From positions 62,001 to 126,000 of the forward strand of contig NZ_SNAQ03000003.1 of the NCBI RefSeq assembly GCF_004375085.3: a DNA stretch of 64,000 nt. The letters are read 5' to 3'. Position 1 is the stretch's first letter. Each line of letters starts with the position of its first letter. The DNA comes from Lewinella sp. W8. GTDB taxonomy: Bacteria; Bacteroidota; Bacteroidia; Chitinophagales; Saprospiraceae. The position numbers and the translations under genes were made by a program. The notes beneath the pieces were generated by a model. It had not been told where the DNA came from. It was given only the letters and a program-made list of their open reading frames with translations, and made no database searches. Shown in pieces: positions 3,703-31,450 of this stretch.

Positions 3703-3874
3703 AGCGTAAACAAGCTCTAAGTGGACAGAAGGTTGGCGGGCGGTGGCAACCGGTAATCTTTGCCCTACTGGTCAGCTCGGCACCTGCCTCCGGCCAAAAT
3801 ACGATTTATGACCGAGGCCAAGCGCATTGGCTGATTAACTACAATCCTATATCCTTAGACCTAAATCCTTAATC

Positions 3875-4677: not shown

Positions 4678-4796
4678 TAAAGCCGGAGGGGACACACAAA
4701 GGAGCAACTCACTGCGTTCGTTGCACACTTCGTGGTCCGAGGGGAGACCCCAAACCTGGTCGAGACGTTCCACGTCGAGCCAATCCTGAAGCCGAA
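4678..4796. repeat. Direct repeat copy 1 (about 118 bp)
   Basis: This copy matches the one at 4966-5085 nearly base for base over its first 65 bases, then at roughly 80-85 percent. The two starts are 288 bases apart. Both begin TAAAGCCGGAGGGGACAC and run through GGTCGAGACG. Confidence 0.88.
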
Positions 4797-4965
4797 GTAG
4801 GCTAGCGCTGGGAAAGAAGGTTAAGAAGAAGAGACTGGAAAAGGTCTGCTCCGCAGGCCGGTCGTAGGAGCTAAGGCTCGAAACAATTCTCCGGAGTAGG
4901 TCTGCCCCCCGCCCAGTGGGAGATTGGTCGGGCAGGCGCAATCCGGTTGTTTGGTGAAAGGGAAA

Positions 4966-5085
4966 TAAAGCCGGAGGGGACACACAAAGGAGCAACTCAC
5001 TGCGTTCGTTGCACACTTCGTGGTCCGAGGGGAGGCCCCAAAACTGGTCGAGACGTTTCACGCCGTGCCAATCCCAGAACCGGAT
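4966..5085. repeat. Direct repeat copy 2 (about 118 bp)
   Basis: This is the second copy of the repeat at 4678-4796, in the same orientation. The first half is nearly identical to copy 1, and differences concentrate after base 5030. No open frame or hairpin explains its conservation. Confidence 0.88.
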
Positions 5086-5229
5086 GTCTCCCCGGAAAAA
5101 GCCTGCTTCCTCCAGCTAAAGGGGCAAGGGCAAGCCGGGCTTCGATTTTTTTTTACGGGGTGCCGTTCTTGGTGAAATGCCCCCAGGGCTCCGCCGAAAT
5201 CTTAAGATCAAATGATCGGGGAATGGCGA

Positions 5230-6075
5230 TTAACTTTCGTCGTCGCCATAGTCATCATCATCTTCCTCATCAATCATGTCGGGGTCGTCACCGTCGGAAT
5301 AATGTTGCAGCAACTTGCTCAGTGGGTCTTTCAACAGGGCGGCACCTACGCCTCCAATAAATAGGCCGACTGATCCAGCAGAGAGGATGGTATTCCACTG
5401 TTTCTTGTTCGTCCTGATTACTTCTTCTACCTTTCCGGCGTAGCGCTGTCGATAATCGTGATATTCTAGCCAGCCTTTCGCGAAATAAGGGTTGGCTTGT
5501 TGGCCGTTATGTACAATGGACCGCCACTCATGTCCGCTTAATCGATGGTTGGGATGAAGGCGGGAAAGTGCTTCGAAATCGGTATGGTCAAGGATGTCCT
5601 GGAAAAGTTGATTTCCGGCCGGAGAGCCTTCCTGTTGTAATAGTTGATGAAAGGTGGATGGTCTTGCCTCAATTAGCGCATCAAAAAAGATATCGATGGG
5701 ATTTCTTTTGGTTATTTGTCCAAGGGCCTCATATGATCTCATCAGTTGATGCTCCTTCCGGGCCAGTAGGGCGGCTTTTTTAACCACCTGCTTGTCTTCG
5801 GCTATACGTTCTTCCCACTGTGAAAGCAGGGTGAGAAAGCCGTACAGAATGCGGTTGCGTTCAACGTTGTCGCGCCTCATGCCGCGGATGAATTGCTTTT
5901 CCTCCGCGCGGTACTGATTGGAAAGGAGAAGGAAATCATCCTGCATATCTGCCGGGAGATCTCCGCCGGAAAAGATGGCTGAAAAAGCCTCGTCAATATT
6001 GTCTTCAGCAACGTATTCCCGAATGGACTGGATTATCCGCAAGGGTTTTGATTTTGTGGGTCCATGATGCCGCAA
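5230..6075 (-). CDS. EAD11-like (effector-associated domain) protein with C-terminal membrane span
   Basis: The 281-aa product has at about residues 12-95 a helical domain with the pattern of effector-associated domain 11. It shows I-R-E-Y-V-A-E-D-N-I-D-E-A-F, then L-L-S-N-Q-Y, then N-V-E-R-N-R-I as the last helix. EADs are homotypic adaptors that tether effectors to NTPase platforms in bacterial conflict systems. Residues 95-220 are helical and unrecognised. A hydrophobic segment at about 227-248 and a strongly acidic tail (E/D run at about 267-280) follow. There is no ATG before the domain. The start must be TTG, either 6075 or 6042, both overlapping the end of the 1129-aa gene upstream, so translation is probably coupled. 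The EAD call rests on pattern recognition alone. Confidence 0.72.
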   Translation of the reverse strand: MRHHGPTKSKPLRIIQSIREYVAEDNIDEAFSAIFSGGDLPADMQDDFLLLSNQYRAEEKQFIRGMRRDNVERNRILYGFLTLLSQWEERIAEDKQVVKKAALLARKEHQLMRSYEALGQITKRNPIDIFFDALIEARPSTFHQLLQQEGSPAGNQLFQDILDHTDFEALSRLHPNHRLSGHEWRSIVHNGQQANPYFAKGWLEYHDYRQRYAGKVEEVIRTNKKQWNTILSAGSVGLFIGGVGAALLKDPLSKLLQHYSDGDDPDMIDEEDDDDYGDDES

Positions 6076-9000
6076 GCTTCGTAGAAGTCCCGCAGATTTT
6101 TGGCGTCTCGTTCGTCCTCAGTGATCAGGGGCAGGTATTCCTCCATCTCTCGAGGGGAGAGGTATCCATTGTATCGTGGGGTGAGTTGCCACTGAACGCT
6201 ATTCTGGCAGTCTGCCGCCATGTTGCTTAATTCTTCCAGGGGGAATTCAGTTCCCAGGTCACCGCTCAGTGCCGCTCGGAAAAGCCGTTGGGCAAGGGTG
6301 AAAGATTGCATTCTTTGTAAGACAGTCCGGTCTTTACTGTTCCCATTTTTTATCCCAAGTTGGACTTCTCTGGCCAGAATACCGCTGGCCTCGAGTGCCG
6401 GGAATTCCCAGGGTTGGTAGTTGGAGTCCGGGTCATTCAAAGGAATGTAGGCAATCTGTTCCATGAACCGCAACGGAGCTAAAGTATTTGGTGCCGGACG
6501 CAAAAATGATAAAGAGGCATCCACGGAATAAGGCATCTCGCGCACCCCGGACCAGGTGGCTACGTCGGTTCTAAGCAGGGTGTTGGGGTCATACACGGTC
6601 ATCGGATTGGCCTCCATTCGATCACTGAAGTTGGTGAAACTCCCCTGACTGGCCAGGAAGGCGCTTTTTACTTCTGTCCACAGTTTTTCGTTATAAAACT
6701 CAGGATAGGCTTCGATGAAGTTGTAATCGGGGTCGGAAATCCGACCATCCTTGGCGTAATACCGGTAAAAGACAGGATAATAATTTTCAATCTGTGCTGC
6801 CAGTTTACCCGCAAACATGGTGTATCGCAAACTTTCCAAGGCATCCAGCCCCGATTGATTCGCAATGGTTACTATTGCCGAGTAGCGATACAAAAGATCC
6901 AGAATCTGGGCACTTTGTAAGGCCTCAGCCACTACGGGGTGGCCGGCTGCAAACTTGTCAACAAACCGGTCCAGGGCGATTACCTCGCACCCTACTTCCG
7001 TATCAATTAAGGCAGGGTGGGCTAAAATTTTCAATCCCGGTAATTCTTGCATGCTAAGCTTGATCATGGTGGCCGCCACGGGGCGGCCATCGGCGGCGTA
7101 GGCCAACGCCTGGTAGACAATATCTGCATCGTAACTACCGGCGTCGTGCTGGGTTCCGGAAGCGTCGGTAAGCTTGATCTCGATCCTTTTTCCCCGTCGC
7201 TCCCAGCTTATTTCCCGGATATCCACGTCGGTTTCCCCGGCGTTTTGGGCTTCTTGCCCAATGAGTACACCCCCGATGCGACGAAAGCCGCGCAAGGAAG
7301 TGAAGCTCCGGGCCCGGGAAGCAATCGAACTGGAACCCATTCGGGCATTGGGGCGTACGCGCCGTGGTTTAGGTTTTCTGTTGGTATTATTGGAGGCGGA
7401 CGGACCTCCTCCCAGACTACCGCCGCCACCACCACCACCGCCAGAGGGACTTACCGCTTCTTCCAGGAAACTCGGATTGTAAGCCACTTCATTGCTAATG
7501 CTGCCACTTACCGTATTCAGTTCGGCCCCCGGGCTGCCGGGGAACAACGATTTGTAAGAGTTTGCGTTATCCGCTAATGCTGCCATGGGCTCTCCTTGGC
7601 GTACGGCCATATTACGTAAGCTGTTATTCATGGTCCGGAGGTTGTCCGGGTGACGATCAATCCGATCCAAAAAGGGAGGGTTCTCCGCGATGTGGGCATT
7701 GAGTGCACTGGGTTCTGGAACCAGGCCAGAGCGATTAACTTCATATTGCATGAAGCGTTTAGGAGTACTGGTCGCGGAAGTGAATTTTTCTCTTGCGGTG
7801 GAAATCTTGGGTTCCGTCACCAAATCCCGCGTGTACTGCTCCATGTTGAGTTCCACCCAACTCTTGACGGTGCCGGCGCTCATACGTTTTGCCAGTCGTT
7901 TAGAGAGTTCACTACCCAAATCATTGGAGGAACTACGGAAGACTTCATTTGCGAAACCGTCAATCGTTTCAGAAATTGCCATGCCAAATACTTCCTTGGG
8001 GCTGGCGGGCCGACTGAAGGAAGCAACCTCTGCCCGGTATTTAGATTTAAGATCACTCCAAACACCTTTGGGGTACTGTTTCGCCTGGTTGCTTAAATAA
8101 TCCCGATAGCGTTGTCCAGCCGTGGTTTTTGGTTGTGGTTTTCCGTTTCCCTGAAGCGAATTGCGCTCAATGCTTTCGGTAAATAGGTCCGCCTGACTGC
8201 GATTGGTACTGGAGTGACCATGAAAATCTACGCTGCTTTCGTATACGGCAGCACGGGCGTTTTTGGCCTGGCTGGTTCGTCCACCCACCTTTTTGGCAGT
8301 TGGTGCATTCTGGTTGGCATGTGCCTGGTAAGACGATAAAATGTTGGTACGAACTGCATGGGCCCGCACCCGAAAATCAGCCAGCCGGTCAGTGGTTTGG
8401 AGGGCGGTACTTACGAGCTGTCGTGCGTAGGTTAATTCAAAGTCACGCGCCAGCGCATTAACGACTTCGTCGTCTTCTTCCGTCCATTCTTCCTCCGCAG
8501 GAATTTGGGCCACCATTGTTTTTTGCCAGTTGTCAATCTCATTACGTTCCGATTGGATCTGGAGATCTACCAACTGCCGCGCAGCATTACTTGCGGTGGT
8601 GCTCAGCGGTGTATGGGCTGCACCCAAAAAGGAAATCAACAGTAGGGCAATACCGATCCGGCGGAGGACTTTGTTGGAGCGATTGACCATTTTTACCATT
8701 CCCTCACTACCAATGATGCCTAGAATAGTGTTCCACCAACCGGAACTGCTCCCTTCATCGGGTTGATCACCGAGTTCATCCAGTACCCGGCGGTCAACAT
8801 CCGCCAGGACGTAGCTTCTTTGTAGGTCTTCGTCCGCTTTCCGCAGGTTCTTTAGGTACGCTGCTTTGCGCCGTATGTCCATCGCGCTTAGTTCACTATC
8901 TGAGATATTACCCACTCGAGAACCTTCCATTCGAACTTCCTGAATTGCCCTGCCGATCCTATCCATCTTGTCAGAAGGAGGCATGGGGGTTAGGCTTCCC

Positions 9001-9422
9001 TCCTTATATCGGTCAAGTAACTTGTCGTAAATACCTTTGGCCGTATGCTTACCCTGTCGGTAGAAGACTACAATAAGGATAACCGCCAGGATGCCCATCA
9101 TCCAAAGGAAACGCTCGCCTCTTATGGCATTTGACCATTCACTGAAATTGGTTAGCGCAACCAGTAAGCTGTCCACAAGTGTAGTGCTGTCAAACATTCT
9201 GGCCATCAGGTTCGTAACCTTAAAAGCTAAGCCGACGAGGAAGAACGTCCATGCGCCAACTAGGGTAGCGGATCGAAGAAAACTAAGGGCGCTGATCCAA
9301 CCCAACCTGGCCATTTCCGGTAATTGATGTTTGAATTCTCTTCTCTTGAAGAACGGAATCAACAATTTACCAACTGCAAGCGAAGAGATAAAGCAGAGCA
9401 GAGCGATAATGAAGATGGACAT
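6033..9422 (-). CDS. Large membrane protein of unknown family, partner of an EAD protein
   Basis: The 1129-aa protein starts with ATG and has predicted membrane spans at about residues 2-24, 45-70, 105-121 and 252-272. Residues 275-650 are polar, Ser/Ala/Arg-rich and probably helical. A run of nine glycines at about 659-668 is a linker to a C-terminal part (about 707-1129). That part opens with F-R-R-I-G-G-V-L-I-G and contains L-A-Y-A-A-D-G-R-P, H-P-A-L-I-D-T and D-R-F-V-D. These blocks look like a folded domain, but I cannot place it. The stop lies inside the downstream EAD-type gene, so the pair acts as one unit. A candidate effector/sensor cassette is my inference. Confidence 0.8.
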   Translation of the reverse strand: MSIFIIALLCFISSLAVGKLLIPFFKRREFKHQLPEMARLGWISALSFLRSATLVGAWTFFLVGLAFKVTNLMARMFDSTTLVDSLLVALTNFSEWSNAIRGERFLWMMGILAVILIVVFYRQGKHTAKGIYDKLLDRYKEGSLTPMPPSDKMDRIGRAIQEVRMEGSRVGNISDSELSAMDIRRKAAYLKNLRKADEDLQRSYVLADVDRRVLDELGDQPDEGSSSGWWNTILGIIGSEGMVKMVNRSNKVLRRIGIALLLISFLGAAHTPLSTTASNAARQLVDLQIQSERNEIDNWQKTMVAQIPAEEEWTEEDDEVVNALARDFELTYARQLVSTALQTTDRLADFRVRAHAVRTNILSSYQAHANQNAPTAKKVGGRTSQAKNARAAVYESSVDFHGHSSTNRSQADLFTESIERNSLQGNGKPQPKTTAGQRYRDYLSNQAKQYPKGVWSDLKSKYRAEVASFSRPASPKEVFGMAISETIDGFANEVFRSSSNDLGSELSKRLAKRMSAGTVKSWVELNMEQYTRDLVTEPKISTAREKFTSATSTPKRFMQYEVNRSGLVPEPSALNAHIAENPPFLDRIDRHPDNLRTMNNSLRNMAVRQGEPMAALADNANSYKSLFPGSPGAELNTVSGSISNEVAYNPSFLEEAVSPSGGGGGGGGSLGGGPSASNNTNRKPKPRRVRPNARMGSSSIASRARSFTSLRGFRRIGGVLIGQEAQNAGETDVDIREISWERRGKRIEIKLTDASGTQHDAGSYDADIVYQALAYAADGRPVAATMIKLSMQELPGLKILAHPALIDTEVGCEVIALDRFVDKFAAGHPVVAEALQSAQILDLLYRYSAIVTIANQSGLDALESLRYTMFAGKLAAQIENYYPVFYRYYAKDGRISDPDYNFIEAYPEFYNEKLWTEVKSAFLASQGSFTNFSDRMEANPMTVYDPNTLLRTDVATWSGVREMPYSVDASLSFLRPAPNTLAPLRFMEQIAYIPLNDPDSNYQPWEFPALEASGILAREVQLGIKNGNSKDRTVLQRMQSFTLAQRLFRAALSGDLGTEFPLEELSNMAADCQNSVQWQLTPRYNGYLSPREMEEYLPLITEDERDAKNLRDFYEACGIMDPQNQNPCG

Positions 9423-9755
9423 TGGGAGTGAGTTCTAAGCAGTGAGGCGTTCTCAAAAAGTCGGCTAAGGTTCAGGTTGACGTAATCGCAGTAAACCTGA
9501 AGAATTAGTCCATCAAGTTAGTAGGGTTTACGGATACTTCAAAGCGCATAAAGCACGTATTTCTACGCTATTCAGCTGATTTTTAAAGGTGTATGGTGCG
9601 ATTTGGATACTATGCATCGGGGATATTGTAAAATATATCATTCACGCATCCATCTCCATGACAGACCTATTTCCCTCATTTTCGCCTATTCATCCTCCCA
9701 TCCCGGGAACCTTGGCCACCCCTTCCTTGTTTATGCCCCGTATTCTCCCGAGAAC
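9423..9755. other. Divergent intergenic region between the membrane-protein cassette and mutS2
   Basis: This gap of 333 bases must hold the promoters for the minus-strand two-gene cassette and for mutS2. I find no exact TAnnTTTG box on either strand and no strong hairpin. The frame of mutS2 stays open upstream to 9603 but lacks family similarity, so I treat that part as non-coding. Confidence 0.5.
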
Positions 9756-12137
9756 ATGAATTTATTACCCAAAGACGCTTACGAAAAATTAGAGTTTGAC
9801 AAGGTGCTGGCCTTGCTCAGGGAACGCTGTAGTGGCGATATGGGCCGTGCGATGGCCGCCGAACTCCGCCCCTCCACCAAGGTTAAGGAAATTAACCGCT
9901 GGCTGGACGAAGTCATGGAATTCAAGCAGGGCACCGACGACCGGAATATGTTTACGGTGGGGGCCTACGACGACGTCAGCGAGGAGTTGAGAATGCTGGA
10001 AATTGAGGGGTACGTCCTCAGTGAGTCCGGCCTGGCCAAGCTGAATGTCTTGCTGCTGCAGGCCAAGGAAATATTTAATTTCTTTGGCAGCGAAGGTCGG
10101 CAAAAGACCTACGAAGCCCTTTTTGCCCTCGTAAGGCAGCTGCACTACGAGCAGGAGTTGTCGGCGGCCATCGAGCGGGTGATCGATAAGGACGGAGTCA
10201 TTCGTTCCGACGCATCGGACGAACTGGCCAGGATTCGCCGGCTCATCGGGAGTAAGCAACGGGAGGTAGAAAAGACTTTCCGTCAGGTAATTGAGAAGTA
10301 CCGGCGGGCGGGTTATCTGTCGGATACGGTGGAGAGCTTTCGGAACGGCCGACGGGTGTTGTCCGTGCCCAGCGAACACAAACGCAAGATTCGGGGAATC
10401 ATCCACGATGAGTCGGCCACCGGTAAGACGGCCTTCATCGAACCCGATGCCGTCATCGGCATCAATAATGATATTTTCGACTTCCAACAGGAAGAAAAGC
10501 GGGAGATATACCGCATCCTGCGGGAGCTTTCCGCCACGCTGCGGCCCTACGTTTCCCACATCACCGGCTACCGAGACCTGATTGCCTACCTGGATCTGGT
10601 GCAGGCCAAGGCCGTGCTGGCGCGACAGATGAAGGCCGAGCGCCCTAAGGTGGACCACCGGCCCACCATCGGGATCAAGGACGGGCGCCACCCCCTGCTC
10701 TTCCTGAAGAACAAGCAGTTCGGGCGTAAAACGGTCCCCTTTGACCTGAAGCTCACCGGAAAGAACCGGATTTTGATGCTTAGTGGGCCAAATGCGGGGG
10801 GTAAGTCCATTGCCATGAAATCCGTGGGCCTCCTGCAACTGATGGTCCAGTGTGGTATGCTGGTGAGCGTGGACGCAGAGTCGGAGATGGGGGTCTTCAA
10901 ACAAGTCTTCGCCGATATTGGTGACCAGCAAAGCATCGAAGACGACCTTTCCACCTACAGCAGCCGACTCAAGAACGCCCGGGAATTCCTGGAAGCCGCC
11001 GATGATCGCACCCTCGTACTGATTGACGAGTTTGGTTCCGGCACCGACCCGGCCAGCGGGGGAGCGATCGCCGAGGGTATTCTGGATGGACTCAATTACC
11101 GCAAGGTATACGGGGTCATCACCACCCACTACTCTAACCTGAAAATCTACGCTTACAAGACCAAGGGCATTGTCAACGGCGGAATGCATTTTGATAAGGA
11201 TACCCTCAGCCCGACCTACGAACTGAAAGTAGGCCGACCGGGGTCCAGCTACGCCTTCGAGATTGCGGGTAAGTCCGGTCTGCCCAAGCGGGTGCTGGAA
11301 TACGCGCGGAAGCGGGCGGGAAAAAATGAGCGTGCCGTGGACCAACTGCTGGTTGACCTGCAGCGCGAAAAGCAGGAGAGTGAGGAGCAGATCCAAAACC
11401 TGGAGCAGAAGCAAAAGACCCTTGATGCCCTGACCCGCACCTACGAAGAGCTCCACCGGGAGATGGAAGTGCGGCGGAAACGCATGAAGTTGGAGGCCAA
11501 GGAACAGGCGCTCCAGGAGACGGCGAAGTACAATAAGGAGATGGAAAACCTGATCCGAAAACTTCGCGAAGAGAAGAAAATTGAAGAGGCCAAGGAGGAA
11601 GCCAAGCGTCTGCGGCAAAAGCGGGAGAAAATCGGTGACCAGGTCACCGAACTGCGGGAGAATATCTACTACGCCCCAAGCCACAAGGACGAGGAACCGA
11701 TTCAGCCCGGAGATTTCGTGCGTCTCCGTGCGGGTGGTGCCACCGGAGAGGTAGAGAGCGTTAACAAGAAAAAGGCCGTCGTCATCGTCGGTGACCTGCG
11801 GCTTACCGTGAAACTACGGGACCTGGAAAAAACGAAGGATCAACTCACCCTACAGCGCAACAAGAGTGTGAGTAGTGACGTAGTTGGAGTGGCCACCTTC
11901 CAGAATAAGTTGGACGTCCGCGGCATGCGCTACGAGGAGGTACTGGCCACCACCGAGGCCTTCGTGGATCGTGCCCTGATGGCTAACGCCAGTCAGTTGC
12001 GGATCGTCCACGGCAAGGGATCCGGTACGCTTAAACGGGCGGTCCGGCAAAAGTTATCCGAGTACAACCACGACTTCACCCTCAGCCACCCGCCCCGGGA
12101 AATGGGAGGAGACGGCGTGACGATTGTGGAATTGTAG
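9756..12137 (+). CDS. mutS2: Endonuclease MutS2 with Smr domain
   Basis: The 793-aa protein starts at the ATG at 9756, where the family N-terminus M-N-L-L-P-K-D-A-Y-E-K-L begins. Helical core and clamp regions are followed by the MutS ATPase. Walker A G-P-N-A-G-G-K-S is at about 342-349, Walker B L-V-L-I-D-E-F-G-S-G-T-D-P near 423-435, and T-T-H-Y in the signature region. A long charged coiled coil (about 520-640), a KOW-like strand region (about 648-690) and a C-terminal Smr nuclease domain (about 716-793, with L-D-V-R-G and H-G-K-G-S-G) complete the architecture. MutS2 acts in suppression of recombination and in ribosome rescue; which role applies here is unknown. Confidence 0.95.
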   Translation: MNLLPKDAYEKLEFDKVLALLRERCSGDMGRAMAAELRPSTKVKEINRWLDEVMEFKQGTDDRNMFTVGAYDDVSEELRMLEIEGYVLSESGLAKLNVLLLQAKEIFNFFGSEGRQKTYEALFALVRQLHYEQELSAAIERVIDKDGVIRSDASDELARIRRLIGSKQREVEKTFRQVIEKYRRAGYLSDTVESFRNGRRVLSVPSEHKRKIRGIIHDESATGKTAFIEPDAVIGINNDIFDFQQEEKREIYRILRELSATLRPYVSHITGYRDLIAYLDLVQAKAVLARQMKAERPKVDHRPTIGIKDGRHPLLFLKNKQFGRKTVPFDLKLTGKNRILMLSGPNAGGKSIAMKSVGLLQLMVQCGMLVSVDAESEMGVFKQVFADIGDQQSIEDDLSTYSSRLKNAREFLEAADDRTLVLIDEFGSGTDPASGGAIAEGILDGLNYRKVYGVITTHYSNLKIYAYKTKGIVNGGMHFDKDTLSPTYELKVGRPGSSYAFEIAGKSGLPKRVLEYARKRAGKNERAVDQLLVDLQREKQESEEQIQNLEQKQKTLDALTRTYEELHREMEVRRKRMKLEAKEQALQETAKYNKEMENLIRKLREEKKIEEAKEEAKRLRQKREKIGDQVTELRENIYYAPSHKDEEPIQPGDFVRLRAGGATGEVESVNKKKAVVIVGDLRLTVKLRDLEKTKDQLTLQRNKSVSSDVVGVATFQNKLDVRGMRYEEVLATTEAFVDRALMANASQLRIVHGKGSGTLKRAVRQKLSEYNHDFTLSHPPREMGGDGVTIVEL

Positions 12138-15940: not shown

Positions 15941-16846
15941 ATGCAGCATCGATTTATACTTCTCTTCCTTTTCCTTACCGGACAATTATTTGCCCAGGGA
16001 AACCCAAAGTTCATTCTGGATGCGGACACCGGTAACGAAGTAGACGACCTTTACGCCATCGTCAGGGTCCTGATTGAGCCTGGCTGGGACCTACTTGGCG
16101 TCAATGCGACCCAGTGGCAAATCACCCACTGGCGGGAGGTGCCCAATTCGATGGAAAACAGTCATCGACTGAATCAGGTACTGATGGCTTACGTCCAGGA
16201 GAAGGATCGGGTGCCGACGTACCGCGGAGCGACCGCCCGGCTATTCGACTGGGGAAACAAATCCCAAACCTCACCGGCCTCCAACTTTATCGTGGAGGAG
16301 GCCCGGAAGATGCCCGAAGGAGAAAAATTAAACGTGGTGGCCCTGGGTGCGCTGACCAACGTGGCTTCGGCCCTCCTCGATGCGCCGGATATTGCTCCTA
16401 AGGTTCGCCTGTACTGGCTGGGATCGTCTTACGATTTCGGGGAGGGGACCATGAAAAATACCGATTTTAACAGCGTAATGGACATCCAGGCGGTGGACAT
16501 AATCCTGCATACCCCCGTTGAGACGCACATCATCCCCAATAACGTGGCGGTAGCCTTTGATATGACCTACGCGGAGACGAAGGAAAGACTTGCCGGTAAA
16601 CACGAGGTGTTTGATTATCTACTGTATCGATGGTTCCAGCACCTGGGGGGAGGGCGGCTGTCCCGTATTTTGTGGGACGTTGCCCTGGTGGAAGCCATTA
16701 TTCATCCGGAATGGGCGGAGAAAGTCAAAATCACCACCTCCAAGGAGCGGGGGAGCCGGGAGGTACATTATTACCGAAGCATTCAGGACGACCGCATGCG
16801 GGAAGATTTCTTTCGTACGCTACTGGCCTATTTTGCGAATGAATAA
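15941..16846 (+). CDS. Exported inosine-uridine-type nucleoside hydrolase
   Basis: The 301-aa precursor has a signal peptide (about 1-19, L-F-A-Q-G). The nucleoside hydrolase calcium-binding motif is D-A-D-T-G-N-E-V-D-D at residues 27-36, the family's DxDxxxxxDD block. The central V-A-L-G-A-L-T-N-V-A segment at about 128-137 is also typical. The enzyme cleaves the N-glycosidic bond of ribonucleosides, here probably in the periplasm for purine or pyrimidine salvage. Length is slightly short of the usual 310-330 residues but the N-terminal active site is complete. Confidence 0.88.
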   Translation: MQHRFILLFLFLTGQLFAQGNPKFILDADTGNEVDDLYAIVRVLIEPGWDLLGVNATQWQITHWREVPNSMENSHRLNQVLMAYVQEKDRVPTYRGATARLFDWGNKSQTSPASNFIVEEARKMPEGEKLNVVALGALTNVASALLDAPDIAPKVRLYWLGSSYDFGEGTMKNTDFNSVMDIQAVDIILHTPVETHIIPNNVAVAFDMTYAETKERLAGKHEVFDYLLYRWFQHLGGGRLSRILWDVALVEAIIHPEWAEKVKITTSKERGSREVHYYRSIQDDRMREDFFRTLLAYFANE

Positions 16847-16923: not shown

Positions 16924-17730
16924 ATGGATAAGCAACTGAAAAGGGAACTCTTTGACCTCATCGCCGACGACAAGCTGGACGAGGCAATTGAGAAATTGCA
17001 GGACACCCTTCCCATGGATCATCCTTCCTTCATGCAGGTGATCAAACTGGCCCGTCGATTCCGGGAACTGGAAAGGAACACCCAGGACGCCATCATTGCG
17101 CTGGACGATGCCAGTCTGGCGAAGAACCAGATTTCCCATTCGCTGATCGGTATCCTTCAGGGAGTAGAAAATCGCCGTACGGATTCGTCTGCTGCCACGC
17201 CTGCGCCGCAGGCGCAGGAGAACCCGGCACCTGCGCATCGTCGCATTCTACCAAGAATCGACGATCCCGACGAGCCTAGCGGAACTCGGGAGCGTCGCCC
17301 CCCACCAACTGCTGCCGACCCCAGTGATGATGCTGCGGAAACGGAGCCAAACTTCTCTACGGCTTCCGCCGCCGCAGAGGGCAAGCTCGGATTTTTTGGG
17401 GACGTGACCTACGGTGGCTCCCCCAGTAAAAAAGAAACCGTGATCGAACTGCGGCACGGCTACGGGAAAACCTACCAGATGTGCCTGGAAGCCACCAAAC
17501 AGGCCGGCTTCAAGATGGAAACGGCCGACCGGACGGGGGGACAACTTACCGCCAGTTCCCCGGCTAATTTCATTACTTCCTTCGGCGAAAAACTACTGTT
17601 CTTTCTTACCCCCATTGACCGGGCGCGCACCCGAATACACATCATCGTGGACGCCCAGCTGCCGACGACCGTATTTGACTGGGGCCGGAACAAGAACAAG
17701 CTGAATGCCGTCCTGAGCCACCTCCGTTAA
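16924..17730 (+). CDS. EAD11-like domain fused to a small C-terminal alpha/beta domain
   Basis: The 268-aa protein begins with a helical domain (about 5-85) similar in pattern to the EAD11-like domains at 5230-6075 and 30356-31450. It shows L-F-D-L-I-A-D-D-K-L-D-E-A-I, then V-I-K-L-A-R-R-F-R-E-L-E-R, and ends at V-E-N-R. A Pro/Ala/Glu-rich linker (about 86-150) follows; part is encoded by GC-rich repeats. The C-terminal domain (about 155-268) has a helix with G-F-K-M-E, strand-rich T-A-S-S-P-A-N-F and a final D-W-G-R-N-K-N-K-L-N motif. I know similar D-W-G-K-N-type domains only as uncharacterised modules. Its stop overlaps that of the convergent threonine aldolase gene. An adaptor role is inferred. 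Confidence 0.72.
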   Translation: MDKQLKRELFDLIADDKLDEAIEKLQDTLPMDHPSFMQVIKLARRFRELERNTQDAIIALDDASLAKNQISHSLIGILQGVENRRTDSSAATPAPQAQENPAPAHRRILPRIDDPDEPSGTRERRPPPTAADPSDDAAETEPNFSTASAAAEGKLGFFGDVTYGGSPSKKETVIELRHGYGKTYQMCLEATKQAGFKMETADRTGGQLTASSPANFITSFGEKLLFFLTPIDRARTRIHIIVDAQLPTTVFDWGRNKNKLNAVLSHLR

Positions 17731-23524: not shown

Positions 23525-26500
23525 CTACCGGTTATCGATCAGGCTTCCCGCTTTTCCGTTATATCCCCGTCCTCCCGTGTTGCCTTCCCGGCCCGGTGCC
23601 CCCGGTTTCTGGAAATTAGTGGGGCAGGGGGGGAGCACCCTGGGCTCCGCGGCGTTGCCACCGCGACCACCCTGGCCACCCTGTCCGCCCCGGCCACTGA
23701 TGCCGGGGTTGGCGCTGAACTTGATCAGTTGATTAAGGTTGGTCGCCCCCGAATATTTTAGCGGGAAGCCAAAGCGCTCAATGACCAGGTTACCACCGTT
23801 TCCACCGTTACCACCGCGGCCACCCTGGCCCCCTGCGCCACCGGATCCGGCGGGGCAAAGCAGCGCACAGCTGCCGTTACCTCCCCGGCCACCCTGACCT
23901 CCATCTCCACCCTGACCACCGTTCTGGCCATCCAGGGTTACGACCATTCCGTCGAGGCGGAGAATCGTGGCAAAATTAATGCGCAGGTTGGGCCCGGACT
24001 GTCCGTCCACGCCGTCCCGGCCGGCCTGGCCCGGGCGCCCCTGAGCGCAGTCCGCGCCGGCGTTAGCACCATTACTGCCGGGAGAGGCTTGACGCGCAAC
24101 GGATTTTTCACTTGTGATCTGCAGCACGCCGTCAATGTCTACACTTTCGGCAATGATGATGAATTCCCGCACGTCAGCGGCCAGTTCGATCACGGCGTCA
24201 CCCTCCACAATGAAGCGGTCCACCCGCAGGGGAGAGGCCGCCTGGGTTAATCGACGGCGTTCGCCGGAACGTAAAATAAACGTACTGGCGTTGGCTTCCC
24301 GCGGTAGGCGGATGGTGAGGTAACCTGCGTCCGCGGAGGGCGGCCCCTGTTGGGTCTGTGGCGTCCGCTGCACGGGGTCGCGAAGATTGACCGTACGGTC
24401 CTGATATCCGGAATAGGAGGCGGTCACGAGGAGGTCTTCTTCCCCTGCTTCGGGGACGCTCAGCTGGTAAATTCCCGTAATCTCATCGGTATTCACCACT
24501 TCCTGCGAGTTCCCCCGCTCCACCACCAGGCGGGCACCGGTAATCACACTACCGTCGGCATCATCCACCACCTGGATGATGATATTATTGGCGGAGGGAT
24601 TGTCAATGGGGGGCGAGGTCGACTGGAAATACAGGGGAACGGTGCTCGAGGAAAGATCCTCTGCCGCAATTAACTGGAAGCCATATCCGGCAGGAGAAAT
24701 CAAATAGCCCGAGACTTCTTCGGGGGTTGGGGCCAATTCAATTACCCCGCTGGGGGTCGTGATGAGAGAAATGGCGGGAAGCGGGTTCTGTCGATTTCTC
24801 AGGAATGAAGCCAGTCGGGTTCTGAGATTGGGAGCCGTTTCTCCCCGACGGATGGGATACACAACCACTCCGGCTCCGGCAATGGGCTGTCGGGTGGTTT
24901 CGTCCAGGAGTTTTATCAGGAGCCTGGTCTCCTCGGTCGTGGTTTGCGGGGGCTGCTGTACGGGAACCTGCTGGGTGGGTGCCCAGACGTGACGGAAGGC
25001 AATGGTCTTTGCGGCTTCGGTCACCCAGTCCCCCGCCTTAAATTCCTCGATGATCACCCGCAAAGAATCAGAAGTTCCCTCAAAATCACCGCCTTCCAAA
25101 TCGATGGACGCCGTGGTGAGGTCCGGGTCAATTTCGATGGGAAATAAGTCAGGACTTTCCCCACTGGCAATTACCGCCAGAATACCCCTTCGCTGTGAGG
25201 TGGAAGACTGGAGGTAATAGCTGGTGGTAATTCTTAACCCTCCGTCCGCTAATTCGGCTCCGTTGATGTCCACTACCCGGGTGGCCTCCCGGTCCAGCAA
25301 GGTGGCGAGGTTTGGCCGGTAAGACAGGGTGTCGAAGTATTGATCCCACATACCTCCGGAATAATCTTCCCGCAACCGGTTCTTGGCCACGTTGGAACCT
25401 TCCTCCGCCCGGATGGCGTAATACCGCATCAGTCCGCCCAAATGCCCGAAATTAAGCTGCATGCCAAGTAATTCTGCATTGGTGGAATCGATACTGAAGT
25501 TGATCTGCCGTTCGTACCAGTGCAGGAGCAGCCCCCAGAAATTATCGTCATCCCCCAGCGTATCCAGTCCGGGAAGATGCTCGGTATTGAAGAATTCGGC
25601 GCACTCGTTGTAGATGCCGATGAGCTGGTTGATCTCGGCCAGGGTGTATCGGCCATCAGGGTAGGCCTCCTGGGCCTCCACGATCTTGTCCTTGAAGGTG
25701 GCGTACTCTCCGTTGTCGTAGGCCGTCAGGGCCTGTACGTGCGCTCGGGCGTAATCACTGGTCGGCCCCCGGTCTTCGGCAATCAAATCCAGTACCGGAT
25801 AGTCCTCCATGGCCGAATACAAATCCTGAGTATTGTGCCACCGGTACAGCGCGAAGAGCAGGAAAAGCACAATCCAGAAGCTCACCCCGATCATCATCGG
25901 AAACCACTTCGGTTTGTCAAAGGTAATTTCTTCTTCTTCCTCTTCCGGAGCGTCTTTTTCACCCAGATTCGTAGGCTCGGGACGGAAATATTCCTCGAGG
26001 GTGGGGGGCTCCGAAAGGGTTTGCTCGGGGGAAATGTTGGAGGATTGCGCGCGCTCGGAAACGTAATCGTCCAGCTTTGCGGCCAGGGCCAGCAGCCCGT
26101 CGGCGAGATTTTGTTCCCCGAAGCGGAAGGGGGTTGATTTGGTGGTCGCTCGTTGCTTGGTCTGCTTGAGCGGCGGCGGACTGCTCATCTTCAGGATGGA
26201 CAGGTTCTGGTCCCTTAAACGCTCATGTTCTTCGGCGTACTGCGGCGCACGTTCATTGATGAATCCCGCCAGGTAGCCCAGCGCCTGGGTGTACTGTTTT
26301 CTCTCTACAAAGGCTTCCACGATTACGCTGGGGAGCTCTTCGCTGGCCGGCTCTTGCCCGGCCGTCGCCTGGCCGGCCTCCGCCTGGCGAAGCAGTTCCA
26401 GCAGGCCCATCGCGGCTCGGTTCCGTTCTATTTCCTTTTCCTGGTAGGCGATCATCCCGGAGCGCCAGCGTTTCTCCAGGTCTGCTGCCTGGTTCTGTAA

Positions 26501-29356
26501 CATTGCCAACTCGTTCAGGGAAAGTCTTTCCTGGGACTCTCCAACGGCCAGCGCTCCTTCAATGGCGGGAAGAAGTTCCCCCCTGGCCAGGGTTTCCCGC
26601 ACGCGAACGAATTCACTTTCCTCTGCGGGGGCGGCTCCATAATTGTCGGGGGCTTCCTTTTCGATCAACGATAACCATTCCAGTATCGCCAATGTGACCC
26701 GATTGGTGGCGATGCTGGACTCTTCTGGGCTTAACACCCCCCGCCGGTTATCGTACTCAATGCCAGAAACGCGGAACCGATAGAAGTAGCATTCGTCCAG
26801 ATAAGCCGAAAAATCACTAGTCAAAATGGGCTGGATCACTTCCAGGGCGGCTCTGGGCTCACCTTTCACCAGCGCTTTCCTGCTACGCTTCAGTCCATCT
26901 TCCAGGGCCTCCATGGCGGCACCTTTCAGCGAAGCTTGCTCAGCACCCTTTCCGGAAGTATCCTGGTATTCCCGTTCAATTTCTCGTTCCAGATCATCGA
27001 GTAGGGCGTCGTCCAGGACGTCGGCATCAATGAGGTAGTGAAGTTCCTTCTTAAGTTGATTATCCCCCTTGTTGAGGAGGTAGCGCTGAACGACCAGGAT
27101 GTTGTCCAGCTGCTGTTCGGCGTACCCTCCCGCCGCGGCGGGCCGGGCCCGCCGTAATTCCTCGGCTACGGTTTCCCGGGCTAGCCGTTCGACCTCCGGG
27201 TCGATGCCCTCCAACAGGTCTTCCCGGACCCCGCTACTGATGTAACCCTCGTCCAGGGCGGGCCAACGACTGATTTTTAGTAGGTTATCGTAGTTGACCT
27301 CTACGTCCTGCGAAGACAAGCTGTGTCCGATGGCCACCGTCAGGTCAAGGTTGGGGTTGGGGTACACGGCCAGCGCCCGGGCCCAGGTTTGTAGTGCCGG
27401 ATCGGTGGCGAAATAATCCATCACGTCCTCTCCGTCCCGCCACCGGAAGTCTTTGATGGATTCGTCAATCCGCTTTTCCCGCATCTTCTCCCGGAAGTGG
27501 TCAAAGTTTCCACCGAGCTCTAGTTGATGGTTTTCCAGCTTTTCGGCGGCCAGGAAGATGCCCTCGCTGTCGCTCGGAAACAGCCCGAAGTGTTGGAAAA
27601 GGAGTTTTTCCTGAAACCCCCAGTCTACGGGCGCGATGGGCGTAAGGATCAGCCGTTGGGGGAAGGCCGAAATCCACTGCAGGTGATGGGGGGCAATGCT
27701 GGGCACCCCCTTGGCGGCATGATCGAGTAACTCGTGGGCGTCGCCGAGAATGAGCAACCGCTGCCCCCCGAACCTCTGGGCGAGTTCTTCGATGGCTAAC
27801 CCGTCCGGTTCCCGCTCGTTCCAGCACCGGTTCAGCTGGTGCTGGTAGTAGTAGACCTCCGCGTAGACGTCCCGCCGGGTAAGCTCGGCGGAAAGGCGCC
27901 GAAAGAGCCGACCCCGGTGACTTTTCGGGTCCACCTCGTCGATCAGCAGGACGTATTCACTGGCAAAACTCTTGGCGGAGAAGCGGGCGTTGGGAAAACC
28001 ACCACTGTTGATGGTTGCTTTAAGCGTGGCGGGCACGTTCAGTACCCTGGCGCCTTCCTCACTGGCCCGCTCCCGCATGGCCCGGGCCAGCCGCAGATGG
28101 CTGGTCTCCAGGGGGATGTTTTTTGTCTGACTTACCCAGGGAATCTTGTAGGGTGGCCGGTCGGGGGCCACGGCAAGCACCCGTTCTTCGGCTCGCTTGC
28201 GCAATTCGGCTTCTTCCCGGGCAGCCTGCTCCAGTTCTTTGACTTGCTTCCACCACCGACGAAAACCCCAAACAAATAGCAGTAGCCATAGTCCGCCAAG
28301 TGTCCACGGCAGCCAGGAACGGATGCCGGCGTTGCGGTCGTGGGTAACGGGAAGGAAGGCATAGGTGGGCACCGTCACCTTTTCGATTCCGGTGAGTACG
28401 TCCGTGAGGTGGGTAATCTCACAGGGAGCTACCGCCCGCCGAAGGGATACCGTCACCGCAATTTCATATCGTTTCTCGGCGGGGAGCTTAATCGCCAGGG
28501 TACGGTCTCGTCCCTGACTTTCCCCGTCCACGGTCCATTTGTATTCGTAATCCTCGGGGCGGTAGCCCAGGGTGGCGAGTAGCTCATCGTCGAAAAGCGC
28601 CGTAAAATCGTATTCGTTTTCGGGGGAGTAATCGGCCAGACTTTCCGGTAGTTCGATGCCGATCAGGGGGGGAGGGTTGCTGCACCGGACGTCGAGATAC
28701 TTGATGGTCCGACCATTACTGCTGGTCTGGGGCGCCCACACCTCCAGGGTGATTAACTGCTGGGCCGCTTCGTCCACAATCGGGGCGACCCGGTAGGGTA
28801 GGTCCCAGTTGGTGCTGTCCACGAGGATCGTGTCTCCCGTCGGGCCACTGGTGACGGTCCAGGTCCACCGCAGGTCCGTGCTGTCCAGTCCCGGAAAGTA
28901 GGAACTGTTGGTAAAGACGATGGCTTCGTCGATCCGGGCCGTGTTCGGCCCGGTAATGCTTACCGTAGTTTCGCCCGTGGTCCGTAAATAATCCCGGATG
29001 AGGAAGAAGGAGATGGCGGCCAGGGCAAAAGACGCCAGCATGACGTAGGGCCAGGCCCGGTCGAACCACCGCCGGACTTTCTTATCCGTCGTCTGCTCTC
29101 CTGCCGCTTGCGGATGTCCGATAACCGGACGGGTTTCCTTCAGCTCCTCGAGGTAGGTCGCGAAAATTCGGGCAAAAACGGCCTGTTCCCCACCATTCTT
29201 GCACAACGCCGGCCCCAGAATCAACCCCAGCTCCTCGGGCTTTTTCAGCCGGTCAGGACCAAAGGCCCGCAATAGCCGGTACACCCGCAGCCGGTCGGCG
29301 GGGGTGATCTCGAAGCCAGCGGCTTCGAGCCGGAGGAACAATCCCTCCAGGGGCAA
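23525..29356 (-). CDS. Giant CoxE/vWA-like membrane protein with collagen-like tail (MoxR partner)
   Basis: The 1943-aa protein starts at TTG 29356; no in-frame ATG precedes it after the stop at about 29395. Residues 1-72 are a helical domain like the N-terminus of CoxE-type MoxR partners. A membrane span (about 103-120), two PKD-like beta domains (about 130-335) and a second span (about 349-364) follow. A cytoplasmic vWA-like domain spans about 466-620, with D-E-V-D-P in place of the DxSxS metal site. A long helical region leads to a third span (about 1150-1170). Two carboxypeptidase-regulatory-like modules lie near 1475 and 1592, and G-G-x-G/G-x-G repeats at about 1770-1925. It is the last gene of the MoxR operon. 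Role in conflict signalling is inferred. Confidence 0.83.
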   Translation of the reverse strand: MPLEGLFLRLEAAGFEITPADRLRVYRLLRAFGPDRLKKPEELGLILGPALCKNGGEQAVFARIFATYLEELKETRPVIGHPQAAGEQTTDKKVRRWFDRAWPYVMLASFALAAISFFLIRDYLRTTGETTVSITGPNTARIDEAIVFTNSSYFPGLDSTDLRWTWTVTSGPTGDTILVDSTNWDLPYRVAPIVDEAAQQLITLEVWAPQTSSNGRTIKYLDVRCSNPPPLIGIELPESLADYSPENEYDFTALFDDELLATLGYRPEDYEYKWTVDGESQGRDRTLAIKLPAEKRYEIAVTVSLRRAVAPCEITHLTDVLTGIEKVTVPTYAFLPVTHDRNAGIRSWLPWTLGGLWLLLFVWGFRRWWKQVKELEQAAREEAELRKRAEERVLAVAPDRPPYKIPWVSQTKNIPLETSHLRLARAMRERASEEGARVLNVPATLKATINSGGFPNARFSAKSFASEYVLLIDEVDPKSHRGRLFRRLSAELTRRDVYAEVYYYQHQLNRCWNEREPDGLAIEELAQRFGGQRLLILGDAHELLDHAAKGVPSIAPHHLQWISAFPQRLILTPIAPVDWGFQEKLLFQHFGLFPSDSEGIFLAAEKLENHQLELGGNFDHFREKMREKRIDESIKDFRWRDGEDVMDYFATDPALQTWARALAVYPNPNLDLTVAIGHSLSSQDVEVNYDNLLKISRWPALDEGYISSGVREDLLEGIDPEVERLARETVAEELRRARPAAAGGYAEQQLDNILVVQRYLLNKGDNQLKKELHYLIDADVLDDALLDDLEREIEREYQDTSGKGAEQASLKGAAMEALEDGLKRSRKALVKGEPRAALEVIQPILTSDFSAYLDECYFYRFRVSGIEYDNRRGVLSPEESSIATNRVTLAILEWLSLIEKEAPDNYGAAPAEESEFVRVRETLARGELLPAIEGALAVGESQERLSLNELAMLQNQAADLEKRWRSGMIAYQEKEIERNRAAMGLLELLRQAEAGQATAGQEPASEELPSVIVEAFVERKQYTQALGYLAGFINERAPQYAEEHERLRDQNLSILKMSSPPPLKQTKQRATTKSTPFRFGEQNLADGLLALAAKLDDYVSERAQSSNISPEQTLSEPPTLEEYFRPEPTNLGEKDAPEEEEEEITFDKPKWFPMMIGVSFWIVLFLLFALYRWHNTQDLYSAMEDYPVLDLIAEDRGPTSDYARAHVQALTAYDNGEYATFKDKIVEAQEAYPDGRYTLAEINQLIGIYNECAEFFNTEHLPGLDTLGDDDNFWGLLLHWYERQINFSIDSTNAELLGMQLNFGHLGGLMRYYAIRAEEGSNVAKNRLREDYSGGMWDQYFDTLSYRPNLATLLDREATRVVDINGAELADGGLRITTSYYLQSSTSQRRGILAVIASGESPDLFPIEIDPDLTTASIDLEGGDFEGTSDSLRVIIEEFKAGDWVTEAAKTIAFRHVWAPTQQVPVQQPPQTTTEETRLLIKLLDETTRQPIAGAGVVVYPIRRGETAPNLRTRLASFLRNRQNPLPAISLITTPSGVIELAPTPEEVSGYLISPAGYGFQLIAAEDLSSSTVPLYFQSTSPPIDNPSANNIIIQVVDDADGSVITGARLVVERGNSQEVVNTDEITGIYQLSVPEAGEEDLLVTASYSGYQDRTVNLRDPVQRTPQTQQGPPSADAGYLTIRLPREANASTFILRSGERRRLTQAASPLRVDRFIVEGDAVIELAADVREFIIIAESVDIDGVLQITSEKSVARQASPGSNGANAGADCAQGRPGQAGRDGVDGQSGPNLRINFATILRLDGMVVTLDGQNGGQGGDGGQGGRGGNGSCALLCPAGSGGAGGQGGRGGNGGNGGNLVIERFGFPLKYSGATNLNQLIKFSANPGISGRGGQGGQGGRGGNAAEPRVLPPCPTNFQKPGAPGREGNTGGRGYNGKAGSLIDNR

Positions 29357-29414
29357 TATGTGGGTTGGTTCTGCGATGACGATGGTCGTTGTTCAGCAAT
29401 CCGTGTGGTCGGCC

Positions 29415-30359
29415 TTAGCCGTAAAGCTCCCGGAGTTTCTGGCGGTCTTCTTCGGTTTTGACGAGGATGGACAGCTGGTGAATGCCGGGTTGAACGTTGT
29501 CAATCTTGCCGTCGGGATTCATCACCGCCAGCATCCGCAACCAGGCGATCAGTTCGGCCGTGGACGGTTTCTTTCGCAAGTCCTGGGCCTGCAGATCCTG
29601 AAAATACTTGATCAGGTCCTTGAGGGCAGACTCGGTGTACCGATTGTGCTCCCCCAGCTGGGCCTTGGCGATTCGCAGGAGGGTTTCGGCGTCGGGGCGC
29701 TCGATGTGGTGGAATACGCAACGCCGCAGAAAGGCGTTGGGGAGGTTCTTTTCCGAGTTGGACGTCATGATGATGACGATCCGCCGCTCGGGATTGGCCG
29801 TAATCCGGCGGTTGCCCTGTTCCCGAACCTCAAAGGTGTAATGCTTGATCTCGTTGAGCAGGTCATTGGGCAGATCCCTTGGGGCCTTATCGATCTCGTC
29901 AATGAGCACAACGCTGCTCTGATCTAGATGCTCCTCTCCGCGTAAGGGAAAATCTGGAGCAGCGTCGCTCCGGGAGCGGGCGATGGCCAGCCCCAGGGCC
30001 TGGAGCTTCAAAAAGTGACGAACCTGTGCGGATTCGGCGTCCCCTTCCTTGAGGTTGGCGGCCCGGAAGTGCCCGAGGGCATCGTAAGTATAAAACAGGT
30101 CCCGGGCCTCCACGGTCGTTTTCGTATTAAAGATGTGGGGGGTGGGCGCAAAATTAAGCCCGTGCGCATCGTTGGCGGCCGCCAGGTCCGCGGCCACTTT
30201 GTAGGCCAGCTCCGTCTTTCCGGTGCCAGGGGCGCCGGTCACCAGCAGCGGCTGCCCGAGGGCAATGGCCGTCTCCACGGCAAGCCGCAATTCGTCGGTC
30301 AGGATGTATTTGGCCGGCTCGAAGGCCGGCGGCCGGGCGTCGCGGATGGTGAAGCTCAT
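29415..30359 (-). CDS. MoxR-family AAA+ ATPase
   Basis: The 314-aa protein starts at ATG 30359, overlapping the previous stop as ATGA, so translation is coupled to the EAD-iSTAND gene. Walker A is G-A-P-G-T-G-K-T at 42-49 and Walker B is V-V-L-I-D-E-I-D-K near 148-156. Sensor 1 is in M-T-S-N-S-E-K and an arginine finger lies in F-L-R-R-C. The lid domain has the MoxR-type P-S-T-A-E-L-I-A-W segment. MoxR ATPases work with vWA proteins as chaperone-like metal-dependent machines. Here the vWA-like partner is encoded 58 bases downstream. Confidence 0.92.
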   Translation of the reverse strand: MSFTIRDARPPAFEPAKYILTDELRLAVETAIALGQPLLVTGAPGTGKTELAYKVAADLAAANDAHGLNFAPTPHIFNTKTTVEARDLFYTYDALGHFRAANLKEGDAESAQVRHFLKLQALGLAIARSRSDAAPDFPLRGEEHLDQSSVVLIDEIDKAPRDLPNDLLNEIKHYTFEVREQGNRRITANPERRIVIIMTSNSEKNLPNAFLRRCVFHHIERPDAETLLRIAKAQLGEHNRYTESALKDLIKYFQDLQAQDLRKKPSTAELIAWLRMLAVMNPDGKIDNVQPGIHQLSILVKTEEDRQKLRELYG

Positions 30360-31450
30360 GATATTAGCTTTTCGTTGTAATCGTTGATGAGGCGCTGGAT
30401 CTCGGGGTTGATCACGGCCATGTAATGGGGGGTATCCGGGTCGAAGATGCTTTCTCCGAAAATGCGGGGGTTGTCTCCCTCGGTGAGGACCTTCCGGTAG
30501 CGTTTCAACCAGTTGACGACGTCGTCGCACCAGACCTTCTCAAATTCCGAAATGACGCAGGCCCCCGCAATGTCCTGGACGGCTTGCCGGACGGATTCGG
30601 CGCGTTCCGCCCGCCTTTCGTTGAACTCAAAGGAGAAGAAAAACAGAAACTGGGGCGCGGATTCTGGAAGGGGATGACTGCGGATATGTTCGATGAACCA
30701 GGTGACGGTTTCGGCAGCCAGCTCCGGCTTTCGGTCCTGGTCTTCCAGCCGGAAGAAAACGGTAACGATATCCCCCTTCTCCAGCGCGTTCACGCGGGGA
30801 GAGTTTTCCCAGAAATACTGAAGGGTTTTATCCATCAGTGGCCCGTGGGCGTCCGCGTTAAGTCCGGCCTTATCGTAAAGTCTTACCAGAATTTCCTGGC
30901 GATACTCTTCGGGTTTTCGGCGGCGGGAAACCACGTAGGGAGTCAGCCGTTCCACGGAAACGGGGTTGAGGAGATCCGGGTTATCGATGTCCCGGAAGTG
31001 TCCCATCAGATCGTGGGCCACCCGCTCGAAAAAGTGTTCGTGCTCGTGGCGATCGTCTCCCTGGAGGATGAAGAATTGACACTGCTCGTCACTACAGCGG
31101 AAATCCAGCAAATCATCCATCTGGTCTTCCCGGTTGATGGTGTAGGCATGAAAGATGTCCACCGGATGTCTTTCCGGCAGTCCGGCGGGGTCCTCCTGGC
31201 GATTTTCGATGGAGCTAACCAGTCGTAACAGATCGCCGGCTACCTGAGCCCGGTAGGTGCTCACGTGAAACTCCAGGATCTCTCCGTTCGTGATTCGCCG
31301 CTCCTGGTCGTTGTGGCGGGAGGTCAGCTGCACCACCGCATCTTCCCTTTCCGGAGCCACTTGCTGCACCACGGACCGTAGCTGCACCAGGGCAGCATCG
31401 ATATCGGGTAAAGCAACGAGGTCTCGAATCTCCTTAAACGCGGAGGACAT
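30356..31450 (-). CDS. EAD11-like plus inactive-STAND (iSTAND) protein
   Basis: The 364-aa protein starts with ATG and opens with an EAD11-like helical domain (about 1-85: I-R-D-L-V-A-x-x-D-I-D-A-A-L, ending I-E-N-R). The following region (about 97-360) resembles the iSTAND domain. It begins H-A-Y-T-I-N-R, then strand F-F-I-L-Q-G-D-D-R-H-E-H-E-H-F-F at about 126-141 sits where a STAND NTPase would have its P-loop, but no G-K-S/T is present. It ends in a winged-helix-like or helical stretch. Known iSTAND proteins couple EAD-bearing partners to MoxR systems. It is first in the three-gene operon; promoter not identified. Confidence 0.78.
   Translation of the reverse strand: MSSAFKEIRDLVALPDIDAALVQLRSVVQQVAPEREDAVVQLTSRHNDQERRITNGEILEFHVSTYRAQVAGDLLRLVSSIENRQEDPAGLPERHPVDIFHAYTINREDQMDDLLDFRCSDEQCQFFILQGDDRHEHEHFFERVAHDLMGHFRDIDNPDLLNPVSVERLTPYVVSRRRKPEEYRQEILVRLYDKAGLNADAHGPLMDKTLQYFWENSPRVNALEKGDIVTVFFRLEDQDRKPELAAETVTWFIEHIRSHPLPESAPQFLFFFSFEFNERRAERAESVRQAVQDIAGACVISEFEKVWCDDVVNWLKRYRKVLTEGDNPRIFGESIFDPDTPHYMAVINPEIQRLINDYNEKLIS

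Follow-up and report, generated by a model that had tools for sequence, protein, structure and literature searches.

A 64,000-nucleotide stretch of the Lewinella sp. W8 genome (contig NZ_SNAQ03000003.1, positions 62,001 to 126,000; hereafter the window, whose own numbering is used throughout) carries three minus-strand genes that probably encode an immune-type switch: an EAD11-iSTAND protein (gene 1, P1, P0001; 364 amino acids [aa]; 30356..31450), a MoxR-type AAA+ ATPase (gene 2, P2, P0002; 314 aa; 29415..30359), and a predicted membrane giant with a vWA-like core (gene 3, P3, P0003; 1943 aa; 23525..29356, from an uncertain TTG start). Genes 1 and 2 overlap by 4 nucleotides (nt), and gene 3 begins 58 nt past gene 2. 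The locus belongs to the iSTAND MoxR-vWA ternary conflict systems described by Kaur 2020 (PMC7159879), with which it has in common an N-terminal EAD on the iSTAND protein, MoxR, a CoxE-type vWA, and a variable C-terminal region.

Gene 1 joins an EAD11 adaptor domain (residues 5-82; 31205..31438; PF19964, 28.6 bits, cut-off 26) to an iSTAND domain without Walker A (residues 103-272; 30635..31144; PF19995, 39.3 bits, cut-off 24); in an alignment of its relatives, own protein included, iSTAND is found in 15/15 and EAD11 in 13/15. As in the published iSTAND ternary systems, the third component is an inactive STAND: in our protein and 61 full-length relatives, the Walker A signature GK[ST] is absent from all 62 aligned iSTAND segments, the single regular-expression match falling elsewhere, in a protein from locus L150. 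At E 0.001 these 62 proteins match iSTAND (58), EAD11 (26), DUF4062 (9), CHAT (7), TIR_2 (7), Pkinase (3), and Trypsin_2 (1). Gene 2 exceeds the Pfam cut-offs of both AAA and AAA_5, its family motifs (Walker A core PGTGKT, DE[IV]DKAPRD, and FLRR) are each kept in 18/18 sequences, and its profile matches midasin chains best among solved structures (whole-chain E 7e-17; no single stretch passes alone), features that identify it as the predicted adjacent MoxR-type AAA+ ATPase with catalytic motifs. Its best NCBIfam match, MadB of the MADS system, scores 79.8 bits, far short of the 475 required, and gene 2 is thus no member of the MadB family. A PADLOC search at E 1 left P1 and P3 unmatched and matched P2 to general AAA+ models (TRIP13, IetA; best 5e-8). 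The original prediction, made from the letters of this DNA alone, had described three minus-strand genes, the first two overlapping by 4 nt and encoding an EAD11-like plus iSTAND-like protein and a MoxR AAA+ ATPase; the open reading frames bear out the arrangement, both gene 1 domains pass their cut-offs, and the AAA/AAA_5 and midasin matches support the ATPase.

Related loci were collected by a MoxR-alignment scan of genome contigs, which returned at least 594 stretches, at least 550 of them confirmed, and the best 80 were kept. MoxR is present in all 80 by construction, the gene-order hidden Markov models were iterated on these same loci, and some loci are one place under two labels (e.g., L079/L068, L109/L062, L135/L051). 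The order iSTAND-MoxR-vWA is found at 58/80 (54 simple, 4 with a split or doubled match), and the remaining 22 show iSTAND-MoxR (8), MoxR-vWA (8), or other patterns (6). A contig end cuts an apparent giant gene at L094, L096, and L105, and no giant was found past MoxR at L081, L083, L084, L114, and L141. Depositor labels of the loci include Bacteroidetes, Acidobacteria, Gemmatimonadetes, cyanobacterial genera, and proteobacterial groups. Across 148 genomes (our own plus relatives), an iSTAND match occurs in 24, exceeding the cut-off in 22, and a P3-like giant is present at 18 of 29 iSTAND loci. No empty site was found in 20 congeners, where the best homologues of the genes on either side are never adjacent: in eight (G001, G004, G007, G009, G012, G013, G017, G020) they lie on one contig about 180 to 460 kb apart, and in the others the flanks are on different contigs or one flank lacks a close match.

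The N-terminal region of gene 3 (residues 1-95; 29072..29356) is kept in relatives, and by position alone we liken it to the CoxE-type four-helix N-terminal domain, which is a tendency and not an obligatory feature of vWA proteins in ternary systems (PMC7159879). It leads into predicted membrane helix 1 (residues 102-120; 28997..29053; hydropathy 1.93), a loop predicted to be extracytoplasmic (residues 121-346; 28319..28996), and predicted membrane helix 2 (residues 347-365; 28262..28318), which is Trp/Leu-rich, has basic residues after it, and is weak at 1.30. A PKD domain is present in 7 of 18 whole giants, though not in our own, presumably within the loop between helices 1 and 2.

The core that follows (residues 396-800; 26957..28171) is predicted to be cytosolic. 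A Pfam scan of P3 gives neither a vWA nor a CoxE match. An AlphaFold2 model built from 61 sequences (pLDDT 94.1, pTM 0.90) nonetheless predicts with high confidence a Rossmann domain plus helices, and we read the order of strands and helices as that of a vWA Rossmann domain, with a helical region after it. Aligned by hhalign to four CoxE-type vWA proteins of sister loci, three of which match VWA_CoxE in Pfam, the core scores 96% probability (E 3e-9). Together, predicted fold and profile comparison support the P3 core as a vWA-like, CoxE-type partner. Our vWA-like set holds 65 proteins, our own included, and counts of cores and helices use the 61 with a core of at least 330 aa. The DxSxS signature of the metal ion-dependent adhesion site (MIDAS) occurs in the segment around strand 1 in 0/61 of these, and MIDAS is lost in the cores of this membrane branch. 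Published ternary systems mostly keep both aspartates of the vWA domain, with exceptions in FtsH and beta-propeller systems, and MIDAS is not made obligatory for membership there (PMC7159879).

The core profile found one irrelevant match among sequences of solved structures (E 0.54), and the highest-probability Foldseek match among the 50 listed was chain G of the NorQD complex, presumably NorD, at probability 0.91 but E 0.027. In NorQD a MoxR-type ring likewise acts on a partner composed of an N-terminal domain, a linker, and a vWA domain; it differs in that NorD, which serves nitric oxide reductase, retains MIDAS, and the parts of that paper available to us mention no NorD membrane helices (PMC13036017). 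That the genes form a housekeeping chaperone, assembling or loading an envelope complex in the manner of the metal-insertion chaperones NorQD or CoxDE, seems improbable to us: the CoxE homology of the core and the NorQD match fit such a role, whereas the MIDAS-bearing vWA partner of those chaperones has no counterpart in a core without DxSxS, distribution is patchy (iSTAND in 24/148 genomes), the far tail is not in common even with congener L079, and the system has ties to EAD11, TIR, and CHAT.

Past the core, P3 carries two copies of EAD11, for a whole-protein Pfam score of 74.9 bits. The first (26660..26881) is weaker, at 31.2 bits, and only partial with our own profile; the second (about residues 919-992; 26381..26605) is the best stretch, at 52.7 bits. 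Predicted membrane helix 3 (residues 1152-1170; 25847..25903; hydropathy 2.41) follows, and then a helical region predicted to be extracytoplasmic (residues 1171-1345; 25322..25846), which shows helices in an otherwise poor model and is similar in L079, a locus of Neolewinella agarilytica, and in G081. Next come a carboxypeptidase-regulatory-like stretch (residues 1596-1656; 24389..24571; 20.9 bits, under the Pfam cut-off of 32.3) and a Gly-rich end (residues 1775-1943; 23528..24034; 30% Gly).

Membrane helices bracket the core across the branch. At a hydropathy of at least 1.8, helix 1 is detected in 53/61 giants, helix 2 in 40/61, and helix 3 in 43/54, the last count covering the 300 residues after the core and so excluding our own helix 3, about 375 residues past it; under the same test, 1/61 core segments, 1/79 MoxR, and 2/63 iSTAND controls pass. 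Our own helix 2 is missed at a threshold of 1.4. A count at 1.3 was dropped, controls passing at that level (21/61 cores, 17/79 MoxR, 21/63 iSTAND). Lysine plus arginine is commoner after helix 2 than before it in 53/61 giants. Given a cytosolic core and three helices, the tail would lie outside the cytoplasm, and from hydropathy and charge we infer a topology for P3 with tail and loop outside and core and EAD11 inside.

The tail itself is exchanged among relatives. Pfam assigned 96 families across 54 tails (our own plus 53, with contig-cut proteins, L115, and L101 left out), as in the variable C-terminal regions of the published ternary systems. The commonest of the 25 families listed (those in fewer than four tails fall outside the list) are FGE-sulfatase (17), CarboxypepD_reg (12), WG repeats (7), WD40 (6), and TSP_3 (6), and several of the commonest listed are binding-type folds. 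In a set of 84 giants that counts repeats and our own, residues 1500-1943 of our giant have no relative, and the Gly-rich end found none there at E 0.001, with or without a low-complexity filter. The PHROGs database gave no match for P3, its tail, or three further proteins of the window.

In two relatives the tail is the target of a diversity-generating retroelement (DGR). A repeat-pair scan of 109 stretches (L049-L157, some places repeated) found retroelement-type pairs at two places, L109 (also L062) and L135 (also L051). Mismatches fall at template A in 8/8 and 9/9 cases in the best 80-nt windows of L109 and L135, and in 92% of 12 in 100-nt windows; at both, the variable copy sits at the 3′ end of the giant gene, within the FGE-sulfatase domain, and RVT_1 genes follow. 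The L135 giant has helices of hydropathy 2.09, 1.64, and 1.71, and within L135:1680-10834 its retroelement sits between the vWA giant and a MoxR gene further downstream. Repeat matches at L136 and L148 were dropped, being tandem repeats by eye and failing a stricter scan. A strict reverse transcriptase regular expression found none, although Pfam shows two, so that reverse transcriptase genes at other loci may be missed. No DGR repeat pair was found at our own locus, and the genome has a single RVT_1 match, on another contig. Outward binding modules and retroelement variation would suit recognition of neighbours and of phage alike, and kin recognition is offered as an alternative for DGR systems (PMC10907252); a receptor for self/non-self or contact recognition in bacteria that aggregate or are multicellular, as opposed to antiviral defence, is on balance quite improbable, the evidence here fitting defence equally.

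EAD11 links the locus to the rest of the genome, in that, as in other ternary systems, a core component and further proteins of the genome have an EAD in common. The genome encodes 1 iSTAND and 18 EAD11 matches (1 in P1, 2 in P3, and 15 elsewhere), and among ten of its proteins that were scanned, EAD11 is joined to TIR_2, to OmpA, and to leucine-rich repeats (the last at 23.5 bits, under the cut-off). EAD11 was detected in 51/148 genomes, comprising 21/24 with iSTAND and 30/124 without (Fisher 6e-9, relatedness ignored). Among the 15 EAD11 genes outside the locus, two are no more than about 26 kb away from it, against 0.12 expected (Poisson P 0.007, for a distance picked post hoc), and both encode possible partners. 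One, of 268 aa (16924..17730, plus strand; 56.8 bits), has a C-terminal part that is unassigned and follows a nucleoside hydrolase-like gene (15941-16846). The other, of 281 aa (5230..6075, minus strand; 38.6 bits), overlaps the last part of a 1129-aa protein that is unmatched in Pfam and PHROGs and, by eye, contains hydrophobic stretches; together they span 5230-9422 (minus strand) and are perhaps another EAD11-linked unit. Elsewhere in the genome, an EAD11-TIR gene adjoins a second TIR gene (L160:4707-6305), and a caspase gene (578 aa) adjoins one for a 698-aa protein with a C-terminal EAD11 (L158:2578-6440). The window also holds a Dynamin_N-type GTPase gene (52879-54603, minus strand) beside a gene that appears Crp-like by eye (52113-52805).

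These features suggest a possible role of the giant in sensing something beyond the cytoplasm and passing a signal inward. We place at slightly better than even (about 0.55) the probability that the locus represents a membrane branch of the iSTAND-MoxR-vWA systems in which an exchangeable outer tail senses and MoxR, iSTAND, and EAD11 relay to cytosolic effectors. We infer the direction of signaling, every contact, and a role directed at invaders or at self versus non-self. We favor a tail that faces outward as the sensor, with the outputs (TIR, CHAT, or EAD11-recruited) in the cytosol: taken together, the predicted topology, the binding-type folds among the tails, the targeting of the tail by retroelements, and the output-type domains carried by iSTAND proteins point that way. 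Under this model, a ligand would bind the tail or the loop outside the cytoplasm, and the change would travel through the helices to the vWA-like core, which would be gripped by the MoxR ring. For NorQD it has been proposed that the NorQ ring rotates the vWA domain and stretches its linker to the N-terminal domain (PMC13036017); ATP-driven remodeling of the kind proposed for NorQ on the NorD linker, whose counterpart in the membrane branch would by analogy be a membrane hairpin, could rearrange the assembly formed with the iSTAND protein. On the inner side of the membrane, EAD11-EAD11 contacts might then recruit or release EAD11-linked effectors of the cytosol, e.g., EAD11-TIR proteins.

Most published readings run the other way: the iSTAND or third component is the sensor and the vWA tail the effector (Kaur 2020, PMC7159879), with iSTAND also taken as the sensor elsewhere (PMC8195603, which suggests nucleic-acid receptors, and PMC12839542). 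Applied here, iSTAND would sense a cytoplasmic invader and MoxR-vWA would deploy the tail against the cell wall or envelope. Enzymes do occur on some giants (caspase in 3/18, Amidase_3 in 1/18), and with only 25 of 96 tail families listed, enzymes in fewer than four tails would not appear. At sister loci of the same taxonomic family (L052, L055, L067, L072), the vWA-like gene stands by itself downstream of MoxR, with one or more larger genes after it; the larger proteins of L052 and L067 have caspase and EAD11 plus pYEATS or amidase domains. The fused, MIDAS-less membrane form thus coexists with a separate-vWA form, and the large protein can bear EAD11 in either. (The L052 protein, at 2719-10254 on the minus strand, has 2512 aa with two caspase stretches, four EAD11 stretches, and pYEATS.) An effector tail is nevertheless unlikely in our view, as several of the commonest listed tail families are binding-type folds, the retroelement diversifies the tail in two relatives, and output-type domains sit on the iSTAND proteins.

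Beyond the published assignments and the enzymes just described, several observations weigh against the favored model. Helix 2 of our own giant is weak, as is helix 1 of the retroelement-bearing L109 giant (1.38), and loss of any one helix would flip the side of the tail. A Foldseek search with the core model returned nothing at E 0.001, the model of our own tail is poor (pLDDT 42), and the window contains no retroelement repeat pair. EAD11 was not seen in 17/18 giants, the local profile being convincing only in our own, and the association of EAD11 with iSTAND across genomes is inflated because iSTAND proteins often carry EAD11. A pairing of P1 and P3 through the closeness of their EAD11 copies is also unsupported, as the copies are not mutually closest.

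The original prediction had called the giant CoxE/vWA-like, which the predicted fold and hhalign support without a direct Pfam match, and had thought a membrane vWA partner with an extracytoplasmic tail to be unlike described systems, a claim that does not hold: N-terminal membrane segments occur in about 28% of iSTAND systems, and PEGA, OmpA, PASTA, and Sel1 domains lie past a membrane segment (Kaur 2020, PMC7159879). It was to be abandoned if EAD, iSTAND, and vWA models gave no significant match or the gene order was confined to this strain; with the domain matches and an order conserved far beyond the strain (58/80 loci), neither applies. The signaling or defence role that it proposed is still a putative one. 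It had also overlooked EAD11 in four places, the two copies in P3 and two more window genes. FGS is the commonest tail domain here and likewise in the Kaur 2020 systems (PMC7159879). Unlike the majority of those systems, the membrane branch lacks DxSxS throughout (61/61) and is almost generally bracketed by membrane helices, and our own giant adds two EAD11 copies and a Gly-rich tail, though some of these proteins may be in the supplement of that paper. The iSTAND2/TERNS3 MoxR-vWA systems (PMC8195603) are alike in having three parts, EADs, and effectors, and differ in their third components and in having vWA-L with effectors carried by a separate gene. Putative antigen sensors diversified by DGRs in Thiohalocapsa PB-PSB1 and others (PMC10907252) are alike in logic, the variable vWA tail being proposed as the sensor and MoxR as the relay to an effector, and one of their loci, DGR 9, combines membrane regions with a target that has periplasmic CLec. 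Those loci differ in being VMAP or unclassified; some of their MoxR-linked targets have an N-terminal extension with no known domains, and our core may equal this unnamed extension. In literature on iSTAND/MoxR/vWA/EAD systems and on Saprospiraceae/Lewinella, supplements and most subscription papers lying outside our coverage, no description of a MIDAS-less membrane branch was found, and the combination of a DxSxS-less core, membrane bracketing, and exchangeable tails after the last helix has apparently not been described before.

Published readings of the vWA tail conflict, effector in one case (PMC7159879) and sensor in another (PMC10907252), and in the topology predicted for the membrane branch, the membrane lies between the tail and the output domains. 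We tentatively raise, at rather less than even odds, the possibility of a widespread and so far undelineated class of transmembrane receptors, in which a membrane-bracketed, MIDAS-less vWA core couples a swappable, sometimes retroelement-hypermutated outer domain to a MoxR ring, an iSTAND hub, and EAD-linked TIR/caspase-type outputs. If the sensor reading is true, these would be recognition receptors of bacteria that face outward and act through TIR or caspase-type outputs in the cytosol.

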